Source: a virus. Taken from it: DNA of 64,000 bases. This document shows positions 51,820 to 52,560 of this stretch, one piece after another (the first letter of the stretch is position 1; the number at the start of each line of letters is the position of its first letter). The stretch spans positions 1-64,000 of the IMG/VR virus record IMGVR_UViG_3300042359_000646; one strand, written 5' to 3'. Under the pieces are notes generated by a model. That model was not told the DNA's origin and ran no database searches. It worked only from the letters and a program-made list of their open reading frames with translations. The translations under genes and the position numbers were made by a program.

Positions 51820-52560
51820 AGAAGATGCAGCAATGCAGGGTAGTGAGTAAGTACGGAGGTGACTCTTCAAAGCAAACTACAGGCTTGGGTGCTTAAGGAA
51901 TAGGCAATACTTAAGGGTGCGTGAAGTAATTACGCGCATCACTCACTAACTCTCCCCAGCACCACAACAGCAAAGAGGTCGCGGTCTTAGGATTCCCCTC
52001 TTTGCAATCTGGATATTCGAGGAATAGTCAATACTCGATTTGTGGGTACGCACCTGCTAACCCCAGCCGTAACTTGAGCCTAAGTAATCAAGCTCTGCAA
52101 AGTTGGGTCTAGGACAGGACTATCCAGCAACCTCTCCAAGGTGTAGACGCATATCAGCGCAACGTTAGTAACTCACCAACAGTTCCCTAGCTTCTGAATT
52201 TGTGAGTAAATAAGAAGTGGTTCGGGCAAGCAAGCTCTGCATCAAGCGTCGAAAAGTGGAGGCAGTCATGAGCCTTTGGTTAGTAGAGTCAGTCAGGATT
52301 GCAATCTTGCCACTTGGAGACATCTCCCTCCTCGTAGATAACTTCAAAGAGCGAACAGTTTGGCGCTATAAAGTGGGAGCGCCATTTCAATTTGGATGAA
52401 GTGGTGGTACTACTATATTTGACATAGGATACCGTGAGTTGGTTCGAGTCCAAACATAGACGCATGGTTGCGTAAGGTGTCCCGACGCAGTTCAAATCTG
52501 CTTAATCCTCTTGCGCGAATTTACCTCACTGGTAGACGGAGGGGTAACACCCCCTGAAAG
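51820..52560 (+). ncRNA. Large structured non-coding RNA region
   Basis: About 740 bases without a credible gene but with many strong helices on the plus strand. TAGTGAGT (51841-51848) pairs with ACTCACTA (51941-51948) and encloses a hairpin CTTAAG...CTTAAG (51892-51915). GCAAAGAGG (51970-51978) pairs with CCTCTTTGC (51997-52005). TCGAG...CTCGA (52017-52038) has the same 12-base loop GAATAG[G/T]CAATA as the first hairpin but a different stem. TGGCGCT (52361) pairs with AGCGCCA (52378). T-arm-like hairpins follow at 52438-52454 and 52487-52501. Size, phage setting and closeness to tRNA genes recall giant RNAs such as GOLLD or ROOL, but I cannot confirm a class. Confidence 0.65.
51892..52038 (+). 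repeat. Two hairpins with the same loop and different stems
   Basis: Hairpin A: CTTAAG-GAATAGGCAATA-CTTAAG at 51892-51915. Hairpin B: TCGAG-GAATAGTCAATA-CTCGA at 52017-52038. Loops differ by one base; stems differ fully yet pair perfectly, as expected when structure and loop are under selection. Confidence 0.75.

Follow-up and report, generated by a model that had tools for sequence, protein, structure and literature searches.

Organization of the locus

The window analysed here comprises the first 64 kb of a virus record of 142,452 bases from IMG/VR, whose nearest named relatives are the Pseudanabaena phages Pam2 (ON014754; L001) and PA-SR01 (MT234670; L002). The host of this lineage is the freshwater cyanobacterium Pseudanabaena. 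A large folded non-coding RNA lies in the window (Table 1), and behind it a gene for a 254-aa protein with DUF7873 (53566-54330), 95-97% identical in Pam2 and PA-SR01. An equivalent non-coding stretch is found 5' of the same conserved genes in L001, L002, L005, L007, L008, L021, and the L080-L083 group; its length is ca. 1.5 kb in Pam2 and ca. 0.9 kb in PA-SR01. Record L004 is practically the same as the window and was left out of the counts; a non-coding RNA with a covarying structure is kept at the same place in eight distinct phages.

Table 1. Positions in the window of the large RNA and of the elements that precede, compose, and follow it
Feature	Position	Strand	Description	Basis
Bipartite promoter-like motif	51784..51817	+	GATAGATG-N20-TATATT	expected transcript start ~51823-51826
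Large RNA core	51823..52390	+	domains I-III and closing region, ~570 nt	syntenic, non-coding, covarying in 8 phages
GGAGGUG box	51855..51861	+	5' strand of a putative closing helix P1 with CAUCUCC (52321-52327), or an accessible anti-SD-complementary site	GGAGGU in 8/8 phages
Domain I (optional)	51884..51959	+	outer stem CUUGGG/CCCCAG, hairpin loop AAUAGGCAAUA at 51899-51909	present in the window, L001, L002, L005, L080
Hairpin between domains I and II (optional)	51970..52005	+	9-bp stem	also in L008, L080; alignment
Domain II	52009..52127	+	stem CUGGAUA 52009-52015/UAUCCAG 52121-52127; hairpin 52017-52038 with invariant loop AAUAGUCAAUA at 52023-52033	covariation, model R1
Domain III	52136..52317	+	CCAAG/CUUGG closing stem, hairpin 52148-52159, H-type pseudoknot 52171-52217, GYAAG/CUURC stem, GUCAU-loop hairpin 52258-52277	pairing tests
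Probable 3' end	52362..52383	+	G+C-rich hairpin GGCGCUAUAAAGUGGGAGCGCC, then AUUUCAAUUU	comparable hairpin and A/U-rich tail end the RNA in L002, L005, L008, L080
tRNA-like module	52394..52508	+	115 nt; acceptor GGAUGAA/UUAAUCC, T-arm GCAG-UUCAAAU-CUGC, an oversized part substituting for the anticodon arm	covariation among modules
Small conserved element	~52512..52578	+	closed by GCGC/GCGC, internal hairpins	also in L005, L007, L021

The sequence-only reading had drawn the interval 51820-52560 as one RNA of about 740 bases adjoining a tRNA region. A large folded RNA is indeed there, but the interval is composite, made up of the core (~51823-52390), the tRNA-like module, and the GCGC element; likewise, tRNA-like modules and a permuted tmRNA do lie nearby, but ARAGORN calls no canonical tRNA anywhere in the window. 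The absence of coding potential, claimed by the same reading, is borne out: no reading frame conserved among the relatives was found in the RNA locus, and the open stretches of at least 40 codons, which occur in all frames of the relatives and reach 112 codons at the longest, resemble each other only pairwise and in differing frames, as expected from similar DNA. The annotated gene Pam2_140 runs antisense over domain III and is probably a spurious annotation.

The perfect helices reported from the sequence are present, e.g., GCAAAGAGG/CCTCTTTGC (the 9-bp hairpin in Table 1), CTGGATA/TATCCAG (52009/52127), and ACTCAC/GTGAGT (52171/52207), but alone they prove little, since the minimum folding energy of 51820-52395 (-167.4 kcal/mol) is no lower than that of dinucleotide shuffles (-165.2, sd 6.7; z = -0.34). 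Folding energy was therefore rejected as evidence; the sequence alone is insufficient for a claim of a structured RNA, and relatives are needed.

Covarying structure of the RNA

Domain II is present in all eight phages, and a model built on it (R1) retrieves a single full copy from each of the eight records. When the eight sequences are aligned with MAFFT (alignment A3), each of the 88 cells of its pairing is standard, and double changes are found in five of the 11 pairs. The covariation score is 0.497 as compared with 0.174 (sd 0.040) for shuffles, none of which reached it in 500 trials; the same outcome (0/500) was obtained for paired cells and for double-change cells. When the partner strand is slid by one to three columns, pairing falls from 100% to 5-39%. 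The stem bearing the loop occurs in four versions, UCGAG/CUCGA, UUGCA/UGCAA, UUCGG/CCGAA, and UCAGG/CCUGA, on which the 11-base loop is invariant.

Helices were also examined by a cognate test, in which the duplex energy of strands from one phage is compared with that of strands from different phages in 20,000 permutations; its counts are to be read with the proviso that the pairing windows, anchored on conserved sites, were picked after the sequences had been seen and that several relatives share recent ancestry. The true pairing was equalled or exceeded in 18/20000 permutations for the domain II hairpin (II2), and in domain III in 192 for III2, 30 for III3, 13 for the pseudoknot, 590 for III4, and 451 for III5; for the hairpin stem of domain I the figure is 659/20000 (n = 5). 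After the removal of L007, whose sequence at these helices is that of the window, the counts were 122/20000 for III3 and 54/20000 for the pseudoknot. Testing III3 and the pseudoknot as one duplex was uninformative (1806/20000), and separate windows resolved both. Overall, covariation in the relatives is far above the controls.

In the pseudoknot the strands ACUCAC/GUGAGU are crossed with CUUCU/AGAAG. This bears on a reading of the locus as a DNA-level feature, a replication origin or a palindrome-rich packaging region, with which its non-coding, hairpin-rich nature and its conserved place would agree. A covarying H-type pseudoknot and G-U cells on the plus strand, which the opposite strand would turn into A-C, speak for RNA rather than for DNA palindromes, as does the directional promoter-like motif, so that a DNA-level role is very improbable.

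The two helices that would close the molecule, P1 (GGAGGUG 51855/CAUCUCC 52321) and P0, gave a negative result: cognate pairing is no better than non-cognate, and P1 is thus unproven. The RNA probably ends at the G+C-rich hairpin listed in Table 1, judging by its counterparts in the relatives; a consensus terminator scan did not accept this hairpin.

The twin hairpins with a shared loop, also noticed in the sequence, carry AATAGGCAATA in domain I and AATAGTCAATA in domain II, identical in 10 of 11 bases; in the whole 142-kb record AATAGNCAATA has two matches only, the twin loops themselves. These nearly identical loops sit on two similar domains, the layout of domain II being repeated in domain I (CUGG..., stem, loop AAUAGGCAAUA, ...CCAG; CUUGGG...CCCCAG in the window). 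Model R1 scores only 15.6-16.4 bits on domain I, on the loop hairpin, which is not significant, so the paralogy of the two domains is a reading of their layout and loop. Two more occurrences of AATAGTCAATA, G001:49575 and G005:56894, have surroundings with no real similarity to the RNA and were taken as chance.

Modular variation and tRNA-like inserts

The relatives differ by whole modules, with extra hairpins, domains, and tRNA-like inserts gained or lost. Domain I is missing in L007, L008, and L021, and domain III, found in seven phages, is wholly missing in L080, which in turn has a tRNA-like module between domains I and II. A domain IV with a covarying closing stem precedes the 3' end in L001, L002, and L080, while L005 carries there another domain with a 12-bp stem. 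The interior of domain II has been exchanged: it is alike in L007 and L002, though in domain III L007 otherwise hardly differs from the window. In L021, a HEARO RNA (44.6 bits, E 2.6e-7, as against a gathering score of 83, which it does not reach) and a gene for a 362-aa RRXRR protein, of the type found in IscB/IsrB, are inserted between domains II and III (6007-7353). The interruption in L021 and the lack of domain III in L080 indicate that some lineages can do without the full-length RNA. A hairpin module with a TATCGTAAA-like loop (e.g., GGAGGGTATCGTAAACCCTCC) is seen at varying inter-domain positions in L002, L021, and L080, as if mobile.

Among seven tRNA-like modules from different loci the acceptor stem (19/20000 permutations) and the T stem (44/20000) covary. 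At the position equivalent to 52394-52508, a tRNA is called in L007 by both Rfam and ARAGORN; next to the RNA the module is absent in L008 and incomplete in L002. In the modules of L005 (3180-3900) and L021 (7600-7720) GAGACTA/TAGTCTC is crossed with ACAG/CTGT (CCAG/CTGG in L005), possibly a small pseudoknot replacing the anticodon arm, with a compensatory change.

Promoter-like motif and neighbouring RNAs

Standard sigma-70 promoter and terminator scans gave nothing above shuffles at the RNA. A phage-specific motif derived by comparing relatives, GRTAGAKG-N18..22-TATAKT, occurs three times in the 64-kb window (51784, 54373, 56537), as against 0.033 expected from Markov-chain sequences, and its shortened form has only one to three matches per whole record. 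It lies 5' of the large RNA in L001, L002, L005, L008, and L021, and in the relatives it occupies three syntenic places, preceding the large RNA, the RNA at 54.4 kb, and a gene cluster that in Pam2 comprises a recombination protein, SSB, dUTPase, and an exonuclease. The motif is promoter-like and is read as a lineage-specific phage promoter.

The second ornate RNA (~54,413-54,760, within 54373-54800) is made up of two tRNA-like modules whose parts stand in permuted order, the T-arm and 3' acceptor strand coming first, followed by a loop of 5-11 bases and then by the 5' acceptor strand and D-arm. It is found at the same place in L001, L002, L005, L007, and L008, and across six phages covariation is seen in its acceptor, T, and distal stems (39-372/20000 permutations). 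We know of no permuted tRNA genes described in phages.

A permuted tmRNA follows at ~55990-56470, with counterparts in L007 (8535-8869), L008 (8214-8540), L001 (~8566-8861), and L002 (~8904-9441); ARAGORN calls it in L007 and L008, and that of Pam2 is similar. In L005, at ~6565-6700, a tRNA-Trp gene (6607-6680) seems to lie within the permuted tmRNA, in its intervening segment. A group-I-like insert of ca. 220 bases (~56055-56281) divides the T-loop of the window tmRNA (GAGGGTTCGA/TCCCTC, 56045-56054 and 56282-56295), and the PA-SR01 tmRNA probably carries the same insert, as the same alignment gap suggests. The tmRNA survey PMC11915505 counts standard, permuted, and intron forms, and in the part of it considered here no permuted form with an intron is listed.

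The large RNA itself might be a degenerate or unusual group I intron, with the neighbouring tRNA-like pieces as its exons: these phages carry the group-I-like tmRNA insert, and AATAGTC recalls a P7 strand. Nevertheless, AAUAGUC occupies a hairpin loop whose stem covaries rather than a P7 strand, the core has no flanking exon halves, L007 has an uninterrupted tRNA behind it, and no Rfam intron model matches the locus at E <= 10, which leaves such an origin with hardly any credence.

Proposed role of the large RNA

It seems rather probable that the large RNA is a free-standing member of a new family, with a transcription unit of its own, working as a scaffold or multimer. The phage would transcribe it separately, probably alongside the DNA-metabolism genes and the second tRNA-like RNA, which share the motif, and it would fold into a rigid multi-domain particle. 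The twin 11-base loops, borne on freely changing stems, may then be contact points within or between molecules, so that the particle might serve as a scaffold or multimer, much as GOLLD and ROOL might, and perhaps hold a partner related to translation. Against this reading stand the closing helices P1 and P0, which do not covary, and the interrupted or shortened RNAs of L021 and L080. This role is suggested by the analogy with GOLLD and ROOL and by the invariance of the loops, and it is the likeliest one, a translation-directed decoy being its main rival.

As a decoy, the RNA would use the GGAGGUG box and the tRNA-like modules to bind the 30S subunit, RNase P, the CCA enzyme, or tRNA-cleaving defence nucleases, the phage thereby diverting or protecting the translation machinery. 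GGAGGU is kept in 8/8 RNAs with no covarying partner, and the box is complementary to the 3' end of 16S rRNA, with no start codon at the usual distance. The tRNA-like modules, at the 3' end of the RNA or inside it, have intact acceptor and T-arms and non-standard anticodon arms, and a twin tRNA-like RNA and the permuted tmRNA lie 2-4 kb downstream. However, the modules beside the RNA are dispensed with in L008 and fragmentary in L002, and pairing with CAYCUCC close to the 3' end may be all that the box does; a decoy is fairly unlikely.

A wider proposal, put forward tentatively and somewhat doubtful, is that of a joint RNA programme under a common phage promoter, in which the modular giant RNA, the permuted tRNA-like RNA, and the permuted, partly intron-containing tmRNA would mimic or capture the host tRNA and ribosome machinery. 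If so, this would be a giant RNA family exchanging modules between relatives, including tRNA-like folds that lack a normal anticodon arm. An unrelated family in the niche of GOLLD and ROOL would be an independent case of such RNAs, and it raises the question of whether giant RNAs near tRNA-like genes have arisen in phages time and again, and to what end. Pam2 and PA-SR01 have been isolated and their hosts can be cultured, which would offer an experimental system, and the RNAs that naturally lack domain I or domain III, or are interrupted, tell which parts are needed.

Relation to known RNA families

A covarying secondary structure in homologues and the absence of coding potential place the RNA among the large structured non-coding RNAs of phages, and its setting, a phage record with tRNA or tRNA-like modules adjacent, is of the GOLLD type. 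Rfam gives no gathering hit in the window, and at E <= 10 only chance hits around the locus. The sequence-only reading had proposed a divergent GOLLD or ROOL or else a new class. The size, the phage setting, the tRNA-like neighbours, and the combination of conserved and variable parts would suit the former; however, over the whole records of seven phages neither RF02032 (GOLLD) nor RF03087 (ROOL) matches the locus, nor is there a match in G000, the best scores elsewhere being 7.2 bits (cut-off 150) and 11.3 bits (cut-off 99.1), respectively. Since both models fail to match, descent from either family is extremely unlikely, and the evidence favours the new class.

Exact conserved motifs of the RNA are found in IMG/VR in this phage lineage only. 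A search with CCAAGGTGTAGNNNCATAT of 84,980 bacterial and archaeal genomes (GTDB) gave 29 hits in unrelated taxa, regarded as chance because none is on a contig with a cyanobacterial title and none has blastn similarity to the RNA; the viral hits of the motif search numbered 42, most of them likewise chance. No mention of a large RNA of the Pam2/PA-SR01 lineage was found in the literature. On the sequence comparisons made, the RNA is a new family of the general kind of large ornate phage RNAs, confined, within the databases searched, to the Pam2/PA-SR01 lineage.

Two known RNAs share its surroundings. HEARO (RF02033) is a separate mobile element within the L021 locus, absent from the window. 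The permuted tmRNA (RF04321), a real one of which is located ca. 4 kb downstream, likewise brings a tRNA-like domain into a phage RNA, but the large RNA has neither a tag frame nor a tmRNA match, and only an optional module of it is tRNA-like.

GOLLD assembles as a 14-mer RNA cage and ROOL as a multimeric RNA cage; to our knowledge, the purpose of these enigmatic RNA-only cages is not understood. Both are phage-borne, lie near tRNA islands, and form RNA cages, and GOLLD sometimes has tRNAs in its linker (PMC12286853). The large RNA resembles ROOL (RF03087) in being phage-borne, in lying near tRNA-like genes where ROOL lies near tRNA islands, in size (the model has 574 positions), and in the presence of pseudoknots, and differs from it in its helices and loops, the model giving no match. 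With GOLLD (RF02032) it shares a large size, phage carriage, a non-coding nature, the proximity of tRNA or tRNA-like genes, and the division into a conserved part and a variable one that may contain a tRNA (PMC12286853). Unlike GOLLD, whose model it does not match, it has two similar AAUAGNCAAUA domains, inserts that are tRNA-like rather than canonical tRNAs, and a distribution in one cyanophage lineage. Set beside the GOLLD plan of a universally conserved 3' and a variable 5' region, it has a core of domains II and III with an optional domain I and inserts, but the inserts lie on both sides and domain III can be lost.
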